Source: Gemmatimonadaceae bacterium
GTDB lineage: Bacteria > Gemmatimonadota > Gemmatimonadetes > Gemmatimonadales > Gemmatimonadaceae
Direction: 5' to 3'
Assembly (NCBI GenBank): GCA_013697785.1
Contig: JACCWE010000151.1
Coordinates: 1 to 54,788, forward strand
Length of the DNA stretch: 54,788 nucleotides
Numbering within the stretch: position 1 is the stretch's first letter; each line of letters starts with the position of its first letter. The position numbers and the translations under genes are program-made. Shown here piece by piece: positions 19,909-34,737 of the stretch. The notes beneath the pieces are model-generated. The model saw only the letters and a list, made by a program, of their open reading frames with translations, made no database searches and had not been told where the DNA came from.

Positions 19909-21120
19909 ATGGCCGCGAATGAGAGCGCGATGTACTTCCGGAAGGGGTTTGGTCTCAAGGCGGACGTCCAGGAGACGCTTGCCACAGACTACTCCGGACG
20001 GCTCGTAGATCTATTGCAGACACGGGGTTACGCCCTCACCGCGGGCGATACCACGGTCCGCCTGGCGCGCGAGTTCGGCTTCTGCTACGGGGTCGAGCGC
20101 GCGGTCGAATACGCCTACCAGACGCGCACGAAATTTCCCGACCGCCGCATCCTCCTCGTCGGCGAGATCATCCACAATCCGCACGTGAACGACCGGCTGC
20201 GCGAGATGGGGATCGAGATCCTGATCCCCGGCCCCGACGGCTTCGACTACTCGGCGATCACGCCCGAGGACGTCGTCATCCTCCCCGCGTTCGGCGTGCC
20301 GATGAAGGATTTCCAGACGCTGCGCGAATCCGGATGCGTAGTGGTCGACACGACGTGCGGCTCGGTGCTCAACGTGTGGAAGCGCGTCGAGGCATATGCG
20401 CGCGACGGCCTCACGTCGCTCATCCACGGCAAGCACTATCACGAGGAGACGCGCGCCACGGCGTCGCAGGCGGAGAAGCACATCGGTGCGCACTGGATCG
20501 TCGTGCGCGACATGACCGAGGCGAAGATGGTGTGCGAGTATATCGAGGGGCGCGGCGACCGCAACGAGTTTCTCGCCAAGTTCGCCCCCGCGGTGAGCGC
20601 CGGCTTCGATCCGGACTTCGAGCTGCGCCGCATCGGCGTTGCGAACCAGACGACGATGCTCGCACGTGAGTCGTTGGCGATCGGCGAGGAAGTCGGCGCT
20701 GCGATCGAGCGCGCGCGCGGAACCGAGGCGCGCGCGGTCGACTTCCGCTCCTTCGACACGATCTGCTCCGCGACGCAGGATAGACAGGATGCCGTGAAGG
20801 AGCTGCTGGCCGAGCCGCTGGATGTGATGGTCGTCGTGGGCGGGTACAACTCGAGCAACACGATCTCGCTCGCGGCGATCTGTGCCGAGCACGTGACGAC
20901 GTACCACATCGAGGACGCGGCGGCGATCGATCCGGGAGCGGGGACGATCCGCCATAAGCCGATTGGGTGCGCCGAGGAGATCAAGACGAGCTGGATGCCG
21001 GAGCACGGCGCCGTGCGGGTTGGGCTGACCGCTGGCGCGAGCACGCCGAACAATAAGATCGGCGACACCGTCGCGCGAGTATTCGCGACGCGGGGCATCG
21101 ATCCGGCCAGCATCGCGTGA
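19909..21120 (+). CDS. ispH: 4-hydroxy-3-methylbut-2-enyl diphosphate reductase (IspH)
   Basis: A 403-residue enzyme for the last step of the MEP pathway, reducing HMBPP to IPP and DMAPP. The three cysteines that bind the iron-sulfur cluster are at 59 (FGFCYGVERAV), 150 (DTTCGSV) and 286 (TICSATQDRQ). His ligands for diphosphate are seen in EIIHNP and HGKHYHEET. It is about 90 residues longer than the E. coli form and has an N-terminal extension and inserts like the cyanobacterial/plant type. It overlaps the next gene by GTGA, so the two are coupled. Confidence 0.95.
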   Translation: MAANESAMYFRKGFGLKADVQETLATDYSGRLVDLLQTRGYALTAGDTTVRLAREFGFCYGVERAVEYAYQTRTKFPDRRILLVGEIIHNPHVNDRLREMGIEILIPGPDGFDYSAITPEDVVILPAFGVPMKDFQTLRESGCVVVDTTCGSVLNVWKRVEAYARDGLTSLIHGKHYHEETRATASQAEKHIGAHWIVVRDMTEAKMVCEYIEGRGDRNEFLAKFAPAVSAGFDPDFELRRIGVANQTTMLARESLAIGEEVGAAIERARGTEARAVDFRSFDTICSATQDRQDAVKELLAEPLDVMVVVGGYNSSNTISLAAICAEHVTTYHIEDAAAIDPGAGTIRHKPIGCAEEIKTSWMPEHGAVRVGLTAGASTPNNKIGDTVARVFATRGIDPASIA

Positions 21121-22103
21121 CGACTGCTGCGCGTCCGCTCTTCGGCTCGGCCGAGCTTCGCGCGGGCACGACGAAAGTAGTCATCATACCCGCGCTGGGC
21201 GGGAAGATCGCGAGTATGGAGATGGCGGGGCGCGAGTGGCTGTGGACGAGCGACGTCATCGCGCACTCGGCGCCGATCGACGGCGCCTCCTACGTCGAGA
21301 CCGCGGACTCGGGTGGCTACGACGAATGCTTTCCGACGGTGGCGGCGTGCACGCTGCCGGCGATCTCGGGGCGCTACGCGGCGCTGTCACTGCCGAATGC
21401 GTACAGCGGCCTCGCGCTTCCCGATCACGGCGAGCTGTGGTCGCAGTCGACGACCTTCGAGCTCAAGACGCTCGAGGAAGGGACGTACGCGGTGTGCGGA
21501 TGGGTGGGGAAGCGGATGCCGTATCGCTTCGCGCGCGCGATTTACGTGACGGCGGATCGCGTGGAGATGCACTACGCGGTGACGAACGACGGGCTGGACC
21601 GACTGCCATTTTTATGGAGCGCGCATCCGCTGCTGCCGCTGACGAAGAACACGAAGCTCGAATTCCCGGAAGGCGCGCGCGTACGCGTATGGGCGCAGCA
21701 CGGCATCGAGCTGGGCGGCCCGGGGGCGGAGCATCGCTGGCCGCGCGCGGTGGCGGCGGGAAAGAATCACGACTTCCGCAATCCCGATTTGATCGCGCGG
21801 AAGTATGCCTGCAAGCTCTTTCTCGACATGGGCACGGGCCGCGCGGCGGTCGAGGACCAGAATGCGCGCCTCGAGGTTTCCTTCGACACGGCGAGCGTCA
21901 CGCACTTCGGCCTCTGGCTCAACCGTGGCGGCTGGTCCCCCTTCCCGCGCGCGAAGCCCTACTACAACCTCGCTTTCGAACCATGTATCGGCGCCCCGGA
22001 CTCCCTAACCGAATCCCTGGGCCAGTGGCGCAGCGCGAACTACCTGGAACCGGGCCAAACACGCGAATGGACACTCACGTGGCGCGGGACGAAGCTGTTG
22101 TAG
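21117..22103 (+). CDS. Aldose-1-epimerase-like (galactose mutarotase) protein
   Basis: A 328-residue beta-sandwich protein resembling aldose 1-epimerase and DUF4432-like mutarotases. It would interconvert sugar anomers or bind carbohydrate. Features are IIPALGGKIASMEMAGREWLW, ESGGYDECFPT-type and PDHGELWSQSTTFEL segments, and a C-terminal half with FLWSAHPLLPL (a His in the expected place). It starts at GTG and overlaps the ispH stop in GTGA. Which sugar, and why it pairs with IspH, is unclear. The gene ends just before the long palindrome. Confidence 0.75.
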   Translation: MTTAARPLFGSAELRAGTTKVVIIPALGGKIASMEMAGREWLWTSDVIAHSAPIDGASYVETADSGGYDECFPTVAACTLPAISGRYAALSLPNAYSGLALPDHGELWSQSTTFELKTLEEGTYAVCGWVGKRMPYRFARAIYVTADRVEMHYAVTNDGLDRLPFLWSAHPLLPLTKNTKLEFPEGARVRVWAQHGIELGGPGAEHRWPRAVAAGKNHDFRNPDLIARKYACKLFLDMGTGRAAVEDQNARLEVSFDTASVTHFGLWLNRGGWSPFPRAKPYYNLAFEPCIGAPDSLTESLGQWRSANYLEPGQTREWTLTWRGTKLL

Positions 22104-22130
22104 CATCCGCAGTTCGCCGTTTCCGTCTTT

Positions 22131-22258
22131 GTCCGTCTCATCCGTTTGTGTCCGTATCTCCCATTGTTAGTGTCCGACTCGGGCTGACGCGGGGTTGGCG
22201 AATGCGCCCAAGCAGACTCTAACAGCAGGAGATACGGACACAAACGGATGAGACGGAC
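22131..22258. repeat. 128-nt palindrome with 31-bp perfect arms
   Basis: Bases 22131-22161 and 22228-22258 are exact reverse complements (31 of 31). The pairing continues inward: GTTAG (22166-22170) with CTAAC (22219-22223), then GTC with GAC and GGGC (22181-22184) with GCCC (22206-22209). The result is a nearly full hairpin with a loop of about 21 nt. CCGT recurs every 9-10 bp on the left arm, like a protein-binding repeat. Several mismatches become G-U pairs if the complementary strand is transcribed. There is no T-run, so it is not a standard terminator. It lies 58 bp before the GxxExxY-type gene. Confidence 0.8.
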
Positions 22259-22318
22259 GCTAACTAATAAGACAATTCGATGATGTGATTGGGCGGATCG
22301 GGCCGACAATGTCGGATG

Positions 22319-22756
22319 ATGCAGAAACGCGAAAACGGGCTGTTCCAGGGCGCACTGACGCGCTCTGTCATCGGCGCCTTTTTTGATGTCCATCGTGATC
22401 TTGGATTCGGTTTTCGAGAATACGTGTGTGCGCTCGCGCTGGAACGCGAGCTAAAAGCCAGAGGGCATCGCGTCGACCGCGAGGTTGCGGTCGTGGTTTA
22501 CTATCGCGGAGAGCCGCTCGCGCTGCAGATGCTCGACATGATCGTCGATGCAAAGGTCGTGGTCGAGATGAAAGCGACCGACAGTCTGCATCCTGGCGCG
22601 AAGGGGCAACTCTTCAGTTACCTATGCACAACGAATCTCGAAGTGGGACTTCTGTTGCACTTCGGGCGTCAACCGAAGTTTTATCGCGTCATTTGCGAAA
22701 ATCGGTTCAAGCGACGCCTCGTCACGGCTTCAGCCCCCGGTCCACCGTTACCGTGA
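22319..22756 (+). CDS. GxxExxY-family PD-(D/E)XK protein (variant motif)
   Basis: A 145-residue protein of the GxxExxY family (PDDEXK_3), a small nuclease-like fold of unknown role. The signature region reads GFGFREYVCALALEREL, so the expected Tyr of GxxExxY is a Cys here. The nuclease-like core is DMIVDAKVVVEMKA, with Asp, Glu and Lys in the D-(D/E)XK order, then GQLFSYLCTTNLEVGLLLHFG. Start choice is between ATGs at 22316 and 22319. It follows the long palindrome, and its 3' end overlaps the LpxR-like gene on the other strand by 35 bp. Base composition near the palindrome is lower in GC than the flanks. Confidence 0.85.
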   Translation: MQKRENGLFQGALTRSVIGAFFDVHRDLGFGFREYVCALALERELKARGHRVDREVAVVVYYRGEPLALQMLDMIVDAKVVVEMKATDSLHPGAKGQLFSYLCTTNLEVGLLLHFGRQPKFYRVICENRFKRRLVTASAPGPPLP

Positions 22757-28968: not shown

Positions 28969-31900
28969 ATGCGCCTACTTAAAGCTGTTTTCGTAGTGGC
29001 TGGAGCGACCGCGTATCTCGCTGCGCCGCCCACCCCTTTGCGCGTTCTGCGAGCCACTCCCGCGGACACTGCCGGGCGCACCGCGAGCATCGAGATCACC
29101 TTCGATCGCCCCGTTGCCGGGTCGCTCGATCGATCCGTCGATCCTCGATCGATCGTCTCGGTGGCGCCAACCGTGCCCGGCCGCGTGGAATGGCGCGATC
29201 CGGTGACGATCGTGCTGACGCCCGCCGGCCTGTTGAGCCCTGCAACGCGCTATGTGGTTACGGTGGGCAAAGGCTTTCAGGCGATGGACGGCAGTCGGCT
29301 CGCCGCTCCGTACACCTTCTCCTTCCGTGTCCGCGCGCCGATGCTGGTCGCCGGCTCGCCTGCTGCGAAGAAGACGATCCCGCACTATCTCACTCCGACG
29401 TCGGGCTTTGCGCTCGTGTACGACGGCCCGGTGGATCTCGCGCAGCTCGCGTCGCGCGCCTACCTCGCGATGGATGCGTCCTGCGCGGGTGGCGCGCGCG
29501 CAATCAAGCTCGAGGCACGAGCGCAACGGCGGCTCGACAAAAACGATCCGTGGGACTATCACGACTACCGAAGCACGGCCGACTCGCTGCGCCGCGTCGT
29601 CTCCCTCGTCCCCGCGTTGCCGATGCCTCTCGCGTGCGGCGGCGCGATCGTCGCGCCCACCGAGCTCGCGCTGGATCGCCCGGCACTGTCGCGCTGGCGC
29701 TTCGAGACGCACGGCGCATTCAAGGTCGTCAAGGCCACCTGCGAGAGCGGGACCTTCTGTCCGACGGGTCCGATCGTCGTGCGCTTCGCAACGCCGGTGC
29801 GCGGCGCCGAAGTTCAACGCCACGTCAAGCTCGCGCCGGCAGTCGCCTTCGCCGTCGCGGACACGGCCGAGGAGTCCGACCGCTTCGTGCTCGACGCCCG
29901 GCTCAAGCCGCACGTCGCCTACGCCGTGATCGCCGACACGCTGATGCGCGACATCTTCGGACAGCCACTCACGGGAAATCCCGCGACGGGCTATCGCACC
30001 ACCGGCTACGAGCCGTCGATCGACTACGCCTACGGTCGGATCACCGTCGAGCGCGGCGGCTTCGGCACGCTCGCGATCGCACACGTCAATGTCGACACGC
30101 TCGTGGTCATCGCCGCACCAATTCCCGACTCTCTCGAGGGCGCCTTCATCCGCCGCTCCGAATGGAACCTCGGCGATCTCTGGACCAAGGTGCGCGCCGG
30201 CGCGCGCGAAACGCGTATCCCGATCGCGCTCGCGGCCGACAAGCCCGGCGTCACCGGCATCAAGATGCCCATGTCGCCCTCCGGCAAGCCGACGCTGTGG
30301 GCGGTGCAGGTCGAACGCTCGCTCCCCGACACCACGACGCAGCGCAACCCGACGATCGCCGTCGTCCAGGTCACGGACCTCGGCGTACATGCGAAGATCG
30401 GCGCGGAGAGCGGCGTCGTGTGGGTGACGGGAGCGAGCGACGGCAAGCCGCGCGCGGGCGCGACGGTGACGCTTTACGACTACACAGGCCAGGTCGCGGC
30501 GACTGCGACGACGGATGCGCAGGGGCTCGCATCGCTCTCGGGCTTTCACGGCAAGCCCGCGGCGGTGCGTGATACCGCGGCGGCCAATGAATCCGGGGAG
30601 GGCGAGTCGGATGAAGGCGGCACCGGAGGCGGATTTCAGCTGTTCGAGGGATACGTGGCCGCGTCGCTCGGATCCGATCGCGCGCTCGTCGGTGTGAGCG
30701 CGTACGATCCCGATCTCGATCCGTGGCGCTTCAACATCTCGCCGGCGTGGGGCGGCGATCGCGTCCCCGCAGCGGGCGCGCTGTTCACGGAGCGCGGCAT
30801 CTATCGCCCCGGCGATCTGCTCTACGCGAAAGCCATCGTGCGCACCGGACCGCTCGGCGCGCTCGCAGTGCCCGCGAAAGCCGATTCGATGCGCTGGCTC
30901 TTCACCACGCGCGATGGCGGCTCGCTGCTCGACTCCGTCGTCGCACTCTCCTCGTTCGGCACGGCTGACGTCTCGATACGCATTCCCACCAACGCGGCCA
31001 TCGGCAGCTACCCGGTGCAGATCCAGACCAAGCGCGGCGCGCAGTGGCTTCCCATCGGCGATGCGAGCTATCGCGTCGCGGAGTATCGCGCTCCGGAATT
31101 TCTCGTCGACGTGACCGGCAGCGATGCGCCGCGCTTTCCCGGCGACTCGATGCATGCAAACGTGCAGGCGCGCTATCTCTTCGGCGCGCCGATGGGACGC
31201 GCGAAGGTGACGTGGCAGGCGTGGCAGTCGCCGGCGTACGTCACCAACGACATCAAGGGCGCCGAGGGCTACTTCATCGGGGACAACGGCTGGTGGTGGG
31301 AGGACGAGGCGAACACGTCTTCGAGCAACGTGCAGCTCTTCGCGAACGGAACCGACACGCTCGATGCATCGGGTGCGCGAACACTCGCGGTCGAGCTCCC
31401 GGAGCCGAAGAAGGGGCGCGCGGTGCGCGTGTCGCTCGCCGCGAACGTCATGGATGTGAACCGGCAGACGTCCGGCGCGCGAACCTCGGTGCTCGTGCAC
31501 CCCGCGTCGTTCTACATCGGGGCGAAGGCGATCGGTTCGAGCTTCTTCTGGACCGCCGGGAAGCCGCAGCAGATCGGGATAATCGCGGTGAAGCCCGCGG
31601 GCGGCCGCGTGCGAGGCGTGCAGGTGCACGGCGTGGTCGCGCGACGTGAGTGGCACCAGGTGCATCGCGAGCGCGATGGCGTGGCCGAGACGGTCGGCGA
31701 GTGGGTCACGGACACGATTGCGAAATGCGACGTGACCACCGCCGATGATCCGGTGCCATGCTCGGTGACACCGGCCGCGGGCGGCACGTACACGGTGACG
31801 CTGCGCGCAACCGACGATCGGAAGCGCGATGCGACGACGACGTTCTATCGCTGGGCCACGGGCACCGACTGGGTGCCGTGGGATGACGAAAGCCGTCTCA

Positions 31901-34737
31901 AGGTCGATGTGATTGCCGACCGCACGAGCTACGTCGTCGGCGACACGGCCACGGTGCTCTTCGCGTCACCGTTCACGGACGCCGAGGCGTGGATCACCGT
32001 GGAGCGCGAAGGGCTGATCGAGCAGCGGAGAATGACGCTGACGTCGGGGTCGACGACGCTGAAGTTCCCGATCACGGAGGCGTTCGCACCGAACGCATTC
32101 GTCTCGATCTTCATCGCACGCGGCCGAAGCACGCCACCCGGGCATCTCGATGATCCGGGGCGTCCGACGATTCGCGTGGGCTACACCGAGCTGCGCGTGA
32201 CGCCCGAGGTGAAGCGGCTCGCCGTAGAAGTGACGCCGACGCGCGCAGAGCTGAGGCCGGGCGACAGCGCCAGCATTGCCGTGCGCGTGCGCGATGCGAA
32301 GGGGGCGGGGCAGCGGAGCGAAGTCACGCTGTGGGCCGTCGATGAGGGGGTGCTCGCGCTCACCGGTTACAAGACTCCGGATCCGATCGATCAGATCTAC
32401 CGCGCGCGGGGAATAGGAATGCGTCTCGCGAGCAACATGGCGAGCGTCGCGCCGCAGATTCCCGAGGGCGAGAAGGGTTTCGCGCCGGGCGGTGGAGGCG
32501 GCGCCGATCGCTCCGATGTGCTGCGCAGCCAGTTCAAGACCACTGCCTTCTTTCTGGGCTCCGTCGTCACGGATGCGGATGGTCGCGCGATCGCGACGGC
32601 GAAGCTTCCCGACAATCTCACGACGTTCAAGGTGATGGCCGTCGCGGTGACGGCGGGCGATCGCTATGGAAACGGCGAATCGAAGCTGCTCGTCACGCGC
32701 CAACTCGTCGCGCGCGCGGCGCTGCCGCGCTTCGTGCGCCCGGGCGACGCATTCACCGCGGGCGCCGTCGTGAATCAGCGCGCGGGCGGAACTCCGACCG
32801 TGCGCGTCGATGCCTCGGCCGCGGGCGGCGCGGAGCTTCGAGGCGACAAGAGCAAGAGCGCGACACTCGAAGCCGGACGCGGACGCGAGGTGCGCTTCTC
32901 CTTCCGCGCGACGCCCGCCGACACCGCGACCTTCCGCTTCGGCGCAACGAGCGGCAAGGACGCGGACGCGGTGCAGACCAGGGTTCCGGTGCGCGCGGAA
33001 TATCTGCCGCACTATCTCACCGTCGCTGGCGTACTGCGCGATTCGGGGAGCGCCGAGATGACGCTCGCCTCGGGACTCGATGCCGCTCGCTCGCGCGTCA
33101 CCTTCTCGCTCGGCGCCTCGCCCGTCGCGGTGCTGCGCGGGCTCGCCGATGGGCTCCGTGTCTATCCGTACGACTGCACGGAGCAGGTGACGAGCGCGGC
33201 GCTGCCGCTGCTGGCACTGCTCAACGCGAAGAGCGACACCACGCTCGTGCGCGCGCGGATGCAGCGCGATGTTACACGCGCGGTGGCGGTGATCAGTGCG
33301 CGGCAGCGCGCCGACGGCGGGATCGGGCTCTGGCACGCACGCGACTGGACGTCGCCGTGGCTCTCCGAGTACGCGGGAAGCTTCCTCGTCGCGGCGAAGC
33401 ACGCCGGCGTGACGGTGGATGACTCCGTGCTCGCGCGGCTCGCCGAATATCTGCGAAAGGATCTGAACACGGGCGCGACGTCGGCGCAGTTCACGCCCAT
33501 CGCCAGCTGGTACAACGATCGGCACACGCGACTCTCGGATCGCGTTGCATCGGTGGATTATCTGAGCCGCATTGGAAAGCCCGATGTCGCCGCCGAGCAT
33601 CAACTCGTCGCGCTCGCGGCGCAGCTGTGGTGGGAGGATCGGCTGCGGCTGGCCGAGGTGCTCGCGCGGCGCGGTGCGACGAAGGAAGCGACGACGCTGA
33701 TCGCTCCAGCTTGGGCGCTCGTGCATCTCGAGGGAACACGCGCGGTGCTGCCGCCGAGCGCGCGCCACGATTTCTATTTCGCATCGCAGGCGCGGCCGAT
33801 GGCACGGCTGCTGACGGCAACGCTCGCGGTGAATCCGACGCATCCGCTGATCGGTCCGATCGTGCAGGCGCTGCTCGAGCAGTCGCGCACGAGCGCGGGG
33901 CTGTGGAATACGCAGGACCAGGGCTCGACGGCGAGCGCGCTCGCGATGTTCGAGCAGCGGCAGCAGGGCGCGGCGGCGCGAGGGATTCGCGTGCGCGCGG
34001 CGGGGCGCACGATCATCGAGACGACGTTTAAGGGGACGGACTCGAGCGTGTCGCTGGCGGGGCTGGTCACAACGATCCCCGGCGGGGCGCAGAAGCTCAA
34101 GCTCGCGCTCGATGTGCCGAAGGGTGACGGCCTCGCCTACTACTATATCACCGTCACCGAGGTGCCGAAGACGGCGCCGGTAAGGCCGGAGGACACCGGC
34201 ATCCAGGTGGAGCGGTGGTACGAGAGCTACGACAAGCCCACGCCGCTCGTGAGTGTGGCGGAGGGTGAGCTCGTGCGCGTGCGGATGCGCGTGACGATCA
34301 AGTCGGAGCGGCACTTCCTCGTGCTCGACGATCCGCTGCCGGCGGGGCTCGAGGCAGTCGACCTCTCGCTGCGCACGGCGGCCGCGCTGCCCGGCCCCGG
34401 TGCCGCCTTCGGGACGAGCGGCGACGCCGACGATGACAGCGGCGGTGACAGCAGCGACGGCTCGTCGTACCGATGGGGGTACGGCACGTGGGACTCAGGG
34501 TGGTGGTCGCCGTGGGATCACAAGGAGATTCGCGATGATCGCGTGGTGTACGTCGCGACGTATCTGTGGCCCGGTGTGTACACCGCGAGCTATATCGCGC
34601 GCGCGACGACGCCGGGTGTCTTCATGCGGCCGCCGGCGCACGCCGAGGAGATGTACAATCCTGCGGTGAGCGGGCGGAGCGATGGCGGCGTGTTCACGGT
34701 GACGCCTCTGGCATCGAAGGGCGGAGGGTCGCGGTAG
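28969..34737 (+). CDS. Bacterial alpha-2-macroglobulin-like protein
   Basis: A 1922-residue giant periplasmic protease trap. The N-terminal part has a signal segment and Ig-like domains, then macroglobulin domains (ERGIYRPGDLLYAKAIVR near 30800). The bait/A2M region has TLWAVDEGVLALTGY and LPDNLTTFKVMAVAV. The thioester is intact as CTEQ (Cys at residue 1403) in a helical TED domain (KSDTTLVRARMQRDV and following). The C-terminal receptor-like domain carries VYVATYLWPGVYTASYIAR. In E. coli the equivalent (YfhM) works with PBP1C as envelope defence. Here the stop overlaps PBP1C by one base (TAGTG). No lipobox is visible, unlike the E. coli form. Confidence 0.92.
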   Translation: MRLLKAVFVVAGATAYLAAPPTPLRVLRATPADTAGRTASIEITFDRPVAGSLDRSVDPRSIVSVAPTVPGRVEWRDPVTIVLTPAGLLSPATRYVVTVGKGFQAMDGSRLAAPYTFSFRVRAPMLVAGSPAAKKTIPHYLTPTSGFALVYDGPVDLAQLASRAYLAMDASCAGGARAIKLEARAQRRLDKNDPWDYHDYRSTADSLRRVVSLVPALPMPLACGGAIVAPTELALDRPALSRWRFETHGAFKVVKATCESGTFCPTGPIVVRFATPVRGAEVQRHVKLAPAVAFAVADTAEESDRFVLDARLKPHVAYAVIADTLMRDIFGQPLTGNPATGYRTTGYEPSIDYAYGRITVERGGFGTLAIAHVNVDTLVVIAAPIPDSLEGAFIRRSEWNLGDLWTKVRAGARETRIPIALAADKPGVTGIKMPMSPSGKPTLWAVQVERSLPDTTTQRNPTIAVVQVTDLGVHAKIGAESGVVWVTGASDGKPRAGATVTLYDYTGQVAATATTDAQGLASLSGFHGKPAAVRDTAAANESGEGESDEGGTGGGFQLFEGYVAASLGSDRALVGVSAYDPDLDPWRFNISPAWGGDRVPAAGALFTERGIYRPGDLLYAKAIVRTGPLGALAVPAKADSMRWLFTTRDGGSLLDSVVALSSFGTADVSIRIPTNAAIGSYPVQIQTKRGAQWLPIGDASYRVAEYRAPEFLVDVTGSDAPRFPGDSMHANVQARYLFGAPMGRAKVTWQAWQSPAYVTNDIKGAEGYFIGDNGWWWEDEANTSSSNVQLFANGTDTLDASGARTLAVELPEPKKGRAVRVSLAANVMDVNRQTSGARTSVLVHPASFYIGAKAIGSSFFWTAGKPQQIGIIAVKPAGGRVRGVQVHGVVARREWHQVHRERDGVAETVGEWVTDTIAKCDVTTADDPVPCSVTPAAGGTYTVTLRATDDRKRDATTTFYRWATGTDWVPWDDESRLKVDVIADRTSYVVGDTATVLFASPFTDAEAWITVEREGLIEQRRMTLTSGSTTLKFPITEAFAPNAFVSIFIARGRSTPPGHLDDPGRPTIRVGYTELRVTPEVKRLAVEVTPTRAELRPGDSASIAVRVRDAKGAGQRSEVTLWAVDEGVLALTGYKTPDPIDQIYRARGIGMRLASNMASVAPQIPEGEKGFAPGGGGGADRSDVLRSQFKTTAFFLGSVVTDADGRAIATAKLPDNLTTFKVMAVAVTAGDRYGNGESKLLVTRQLVARAALPRFVRPGDAFTAGAVVNQRAGGTPTVRVDASAAGGAELRGDKSKSATLEAGRGREVRFSFRATPADTATFRFGATSGKDADAVQTRVPVRAEYLPHYLTVAGVLRDSGSAEMTLASGLDAARSRVTFSLGASPVAVLRGLADGLRVYPYDCTEQVTSAALPLLALLNAKSDTTLVRARMQRDVTRAVAVISARQRADGGIGLWHARDWTSPWLSEYAGSFLVAAKHAGVTVDDSVLARLAEYLRKDLNTGATSAQFTPIASWYNDRHTRLSDRVASVDYLSRIGKPDVAAEHQLVALAAQLWWEDRLRLAEVLARRGATKEATTLIAPAWALVHLEGTRAVLPPSARHDFYFASQARPMARLLTATLAVNPTHPLIGPIVQALLEQSRTSAGLWNTQDQGSTASALAMFEQRQQGAAARGIRVRAAGRTIIETTFKGTDSSVSLAGLVTTIPGGAQKLKLALDVPKGDGLAYYYITVTEVPKTAPVRPEDTGIQVERWYESYDKPTPLVSVAEGELVRVRMRVTIKSERHFLVLDDPLPAGLEAVDLSLRTAAALPGPGAAFGTSGDADDDSGGDSSDGSSYRWGYGTWDSGWWSPWDHKEIRDDRVVYVATYLWPGVYTASYIARATTPGVFMRPPAHAEEMYNPAVSGRSDGGVFTVTPLASKGGGSR

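Follow-up and report, generated by a model that had tools for sequence, protein, structure and literature searches.

A box-array palindrome and its GxxExxY nuclease gene in Gemmatimonadaceae: a candidate small mobile DNA element

What kind of element does a long intergenic palindrome form with the small nuclease-like gene beside it? The question is raised by a locus of a Gemmatimonadaceae bacterium (contig JACCWE010000151.1; the window, i.e. the whole stretch analysed, comprises 54,788 nucleotides). The insertion interval is bounded on the left by the stop codon of a conserved gene with no Pfam match (21117-22103, + strand), presumably aldose-epimerase-like, and on the right by the convergent gene of an LpxR outer-membrane protein (PF09982; 22722-23840, - strand). 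The first-pass annotation had suggested a DNA or RNA element that is moved or cut by the encoded protein. The DNA part of this suggestion is the best remaining reading, and the RNA part is not borne out: we favour, with a probability of roughly 0.6, a small mobile DNA element whose ends are inverted box arrays, whose Cas4-fold nuclease acts on these arrays, and which has non-autonomous copies.

The inverted arms of 31 bp are perfect, as first described (22131-22161 pairing with 22228-22258), and constitute the first part of longer arms of 44 nt each (22131-22174 and 22215-22258), which are complementary at 40 of 44 positions (91%) and enclose a loop of 40 nt (22175-22214); the loops of congeneric palindromes are longer and variable. 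The 128-nt hairpin is likewise present, with folding energies of -88.2 (+ strand) and -97.5 kcal/mol (- strand) and z-scores of -10 and -14, respectively, and none of 200 dinucleotide shuffles folds as well. Including its outermost box, the left arm (22122-22174) contains four TCCGT boxes starting at 22122, 22132, 22141 and 22151, followed by CATTGTTAGTGTC. The right arm is an inverted copy with three ACGGA boxes (22234, 22244 and 22253); the spacing is 9-10 bp on both sides. A search with the ill-chosen repeat pattern CCGTYTCATCCGTTTTTTGTCCG returned no matches. The GTTAG...CTAAC portion of the arms prompted us to consider an integron attC site, which was dismissed because the core-base order, judged by eye, does not fit.

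Downstream of the palindrome lies an intact small PD-(D/E)XK gene of the GxxExxY family (PDDEXK_3; 22316-22756, + strand), which starts at ATG 22316 or 22319. Its 3' end and that of the convergent LpxR gene overlap. The product reaches 97.6 bits against TIGR04256 (curated cut-off 35) and 100.2 bits against PF13366 (curated cut-off 22), far above the family cut-offs, with a motif GFREYVC (GxxExxC) that has the Cys in place of Tyr noticed at first pass. This Cys is private to the window copy, Tyr being present in 4/4 congeners. The E/D/ExK/Q core is intact: E34, D73, E83, K85 and Q97 are invariant in an alignment of 39 GxxExxY proteins with the window protein placed first, and the same 39 proteins possess no invariant or nearly invariant Cys. 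An AlphaFold2 model (pLDDT 90.8) has SSO0001 (4ic1), which we take to be a Cas4 nuclease, as its top structural match in the PDB (VIA Z 9.8 with an rmsd of 8.3 across 115 residues; Foldseek E 4e-4). Foldseek additionally lists the alkaline exonuclease LHK-Exo, Hjc scores Z 7.1, and a PDB search by sequence gave no match. Fold core and catalytic residues are shared with Cas4/RecB-type nucleases and archaeal Hjc resolvases; in contrast to Fe-S Cas4, GxxExxY proteins have no invariant cysteines and stand alone, with about 145 aa. The predicted Cas4-like fold as such points to no specific activity. Genes of the genus show dN/dS of 0.10-0.27 with synonymous sites near saturation (dS 0.7-1.7), so the protein is under purifying selection, and the palindromes of the genus still pair with themselves though their sequences differ from one another. 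A role in anti-phage defence was discarded, the sole PADLOC match (DpdE, E 6e-4, 17.5 bits) being weak.

Palindrome and gene were proposed to belong together, and the wider comparison bears this out as one recurrent unit. Using one inverted-repeat test at fixed thresholds, we scored 62 GxxExxY genes from the order Gemmatimonadales together with 30 S23 genes and 30 PIN genes, antisense frames having been excluded from the seed alignment before counting. Arrays beside or around the gene (score of at least 16) occur in 49/62 GxxExxY, 26/30 S23 and 4/30 PIN loci (GxxExxY versus PIN, p 2e-9), whereas 13 of the 62 GxxExxY genes are without arms by this test. Arms spanning the gene are found in 25/62, 25/30 and 0/30 loci, respectively; thresholds for spanning arms and hairpins were chosen once the first 62 loci had been seen, and the same code then scored the S23, PIN and 80-locus sets. 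With a score of 18, 23/63 GxxExxY loci compare with 0/126 shifted controls. Across about 20 bacterial and archaeal phyla, mirrored arrays flank 57/80 GxxExxY loci but 1/135 shifted controls (p 5e-32), typically as TTCACCACAGAGACACAGAGACACAGAG...gene...mirror. These are compact units with a median length of 476 bp, in which the arms abut the ORF; boxes are short (7-12 nt), and the arm period, where detectable, is about 8-10 nt for GxxExxY and 7-8 nt for S23. The link between palindrome and GxxExxY gene is real and general. REP/BIME or bidirectional-terminator repeats that adjoin GxxExxY genes by chance might be suspected from gene-less copies behind stop codons and from an unrelated terminator-like hairpin in a congener at the window's site, but as a general account they are refuted by the PIN comparison and the set of about 20 phyla, and box sequence, furthermore, follows the protein subfamily; we give this account a negligible probability.

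At the syntenic site, palindrome and gene are both missing from two congeners (G001 and G002), G003 shows two palindromes without the gene, and G004 combines palindrome and GxxExxY gene. G002 shows there another hairpin, AGGTTGCTGAAAAA...TTTTTTTTCAGCAACCT, which resembles a bidirectional terminator (locus L130, about 1430-1500). GxxExxY genes of these four genomes, here and elsewhere, are preceded by a palindrome or by the right half of one, and the start codon often falls within the last box or next to it. Both arms of the window copy stand together upstream of the gene, whereas arms flank the gene in most other elements, and a right-hand array beyond the gene is absent. This absence and the Cys at a nearly invariant Tyr suggest that the window copy may be decaying. 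Several GxxExxY genes are split over two frames or truncated (L119, L124, L125 and other fragments of G020 and G059), as expected of decaying genes of mobile elements.

The window genome (3.8 Mb) possesses two GxxExxY genes and, spread over six contigs, about seven further CCGT-box arrays that lack the gene; a gapped test shows part of them to be clear palindromes, the others are more decayed, and several sit behind stop codons. Genome G019, a relative also with two GxxExxY genes, contains the palindrome that lies beside one of them in at least 40 dispersed copies of 82-100% identity, and 1 of the 27 copies fetched adjoins a GxxExxY gene. No copy of this palindrome was detected in G000 (the window genome), G017, G018 or G020, the last being Gemmatirosa kalamazoonensis of the same family, and G024 has three short partial matches. 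A repeat family away from the gene, which the first-pass annotation had named as a refuting outcome if unlinked to GxxExxY genes, is thus seen in part. Its boxes, however, recur within each genome in a copy that has GxxExxY beside it, and the gene-less copies therefore look like non-autonomous derivatives and not like evidence against the link. The G019 palindrome (L275-L304) is 118 nt long, has CGGAT boxes and is nested inside a longer mosaic, which has CGGCGCGCCGGACCCC...GGGGTCCGGCGCGCCG on the outside and in some copies also TGTCATCCTGTC flanks.

Occupied and empty sites are also found in other phyla. In Bacteroides finegoldii, TTCACCACAGAGGACGCAGAGGACACGGAG-ORF-mirror lies between radA and a FAD gene; the corresponding interval of Parabacteroides distasonis measures about 13 bp. 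In Sphingomonas parapaucimobilis an element lies between fabD and fabG, a site at which S. paeninsulae has none. The junctions are inexact, since the organisms compared belong to different genera or species. Alignment of the 27 G019 copies for a target-site duplication left copy ends blurred by nested flanking repeats. The mobile-element reading is weakened in that neither a target-site duplication nor an exact close-strain junction directly attests to movement. Carriage by phages or plasmids was dropped as an explanation, with GxxExxY found in 0 of 50,697 phage records, one viral contig and 8 of 72,556 plasmid records.

The same distribution could arise by homing, the palindromes being an older repeat and target which GxxExxY cuts, and repair then copying the gene into them, in the manner of a homing endonuclease gene. 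Gene-less palindromes outnumber gene-bearing ones, G003 has them where the window genome and G004 have a gene beside one, and the position of start codons at the last box in the genus would suit such insertion. However, the tight flanking of the gene on both sides in most elements of other phyla fits a unit as well, and the spread of the palindromes themselves is left without explanation. We regard homing as a live but unlikely rival, and the window palindrome is probably the end structure of a small, putatively mobile DNA element with the GxxExxY nuclease as its sole gene.

The CCGT boxes had been likened to a protein-binding array, and their behaviour agrees with this, boxes being conserved and spacers free. 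In the broad set, 53/58 elements carry at least two CRCRRAG boxes, as do 7/16 GPG-type elements of the order, against 0/33 in the other subfamilies. Box and protein distances are correlated in each of two sets (Mantel r 0.30, p 0.001), a co-variation that could partly be the joint descent of one DNA unit. Boxes track the protein subfamily and not the host. The arms are element-specific partly by construction, since elements were picked by their own arm score.

Selection on RNA structure had been suspected from mismatches that become G-U pairs in a lower-strand transcript. Of the four arm mismatches in the window, two are G-U on the lower strand, one is G-U on the upper strand and one is a transversion, which leaves the argument weak. 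An RNA element like the intervening sequences of 23S rRNA, in which the arms would pair in the transcript, RNase III would excise the element and the RNA hairpin would be under selection, has a precedent in Coxiella (PMC4990558) and would suit the very stable window hairpin. Arm mismatches on the gene-sense strand, however, show no excess of G-U over A-C (116:120 for GxxExxY, 35:37 for S23), and the copies in G019 conserve their CGGAT boxes while the innermost spacers pair no better within a copy (0.31) than between copies (0.40). An Rfam search gave no match. With boxes conserved, spacers unpaired and G-U equal to A-C, the selected feature is the inverted set of phased DNA boxes and not a hairpin RNA, and an RNA element is very improbable. 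Inverted phased boxes are what a DNA-binding protein would need.

In Gemmatimonadales, 25/30 genes of S23 (four-helix-bundle) proteins (L133-L162) likewise lie between inverted arrays, with units of 7-8 nt (AGAGTTG, GGAGTCA, GACGGGC and others), a class parallel to the GxxExxY elements; the S23 gene of the window genome is located elsewhere and not at the window locus. S23 proteins are not known to be nucleases, and their presence in the same architecture means that catalysis may not be what moves the elements. This parallel keeps alive a reading in which GxxExxY, like S23, only binds the arrays, copying is done by host replication or repair or by a reverse transcriptase in trans, and the nuclease has another role. 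The catalytic residues invariant in all 39 GxxExxY proteins argue against it, and we consider it a live rival too, though somewhat less likely than homing.

Under the favoured reading of a mobile DNA element, the ends would be inverted arrays of three to five short boxes (TCCGT in the window) about one helical turn apart, and the sole gene would encode a single-domain nuclease of the PD-(D/E)XK (Cas4/RecB-like) fold. Most likely this protein would bind the box arrays and cut DNA at them or at a cruciform which they can extrude. The cut might start a copy or excision event to be completed by host repair, and gene-less palindromes would be non-autonomous derivatives served in trans. More tentatively, and with the odds somewhat against it, GxxExxY and S23 elements may form one unrecognised superfamily of one-gene mobile DNA of about 0.5 kb, lacking transposase, recombinase and reverse transcriptase. 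Its members would be defined by inverted arrays whose helically phased box diverges along with the protein, and they would be moved via host repair, GxxExxY elements by their Cas4-fold nuclease, which stands alone, and S23 elements by a binding protein.

Among known systems, REPIN/RAYT also ties one gene to palindromes, with many intergenic gene-less copies, often behind genes, that are served in trans (PMC3116915, PMC3733652). The dispersed gene-less copies (about 7 in the window genome, at least 40 in G019) resemble these, but the enzyme is a PD-(D/E)XK nuclease instead of a Y1 tyrosine transposase, and a phased short box, different from one element to the next, makes up the arrays at the ends. 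A RAYT/IS200 element was rejected for the window genome, in which Y1_Tnp (PF01797) has no match. In the intervening sequence of Coxiella, which RNase III cuts, a terminal stem of 28 bp encloses an S23 ORF (PMC4990558). Such intervening sequences share a single small ORF between complementary termini with the present elements, and S23 genes of Gemmatimonadales have the same inverted-array ends; the window element, in contrast, is intergenic between two protein genes and not in an rRNA helix, encodes GxxExxY instead of S23, and has no sign of RNA-level selection. MITEs and insertion sequences are similar in their inverted ends, dispersed non-autonomous copies and empty sites, but here a transposase is absent, termini differ between elements and no target-site duplication is established. 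Xanthomonas, Nostoc and Beggiatoaceae have intergenic arrays built of 7-nt units, part of which form inverted pairs (PMC4692102, PMC4679880). The S23-type arrays have similar units. The passages drawn on here name no gene associated with those repeats, whereas the present arrays go together with S23 and GxxExxY genes.

In the open-access literature the array sequences searched for were not found, and GxxExxY is named for a misassigned cas4-adjacent gene; on this basis the pairing of GxxExxY with mirrored arrays seems undescribed. GxxExxY and S23 are common annotations without function, and both are tied to one genomic architecture, GxxExxY across about 20 phyla and S23 in one order. Each protein has its own box array as a testable substrate. 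The elements may be a source of many short tandem or palindromic intergenic repeats, and they suggest a nuclease-only route by which mobile elements could spread.

Two further features were observed. In Gemmatirosa kalamazoonensis (NZ_CP007129.1, L108), inverted similarity extends over about 290 nt around the GxxExxY gene and reaches the apparent 3' ends of two convergent homologous genes. The window also contains a gene of 1922 aa for a bacterial alpha-2-macroglobulin (28969-34737, + strand).
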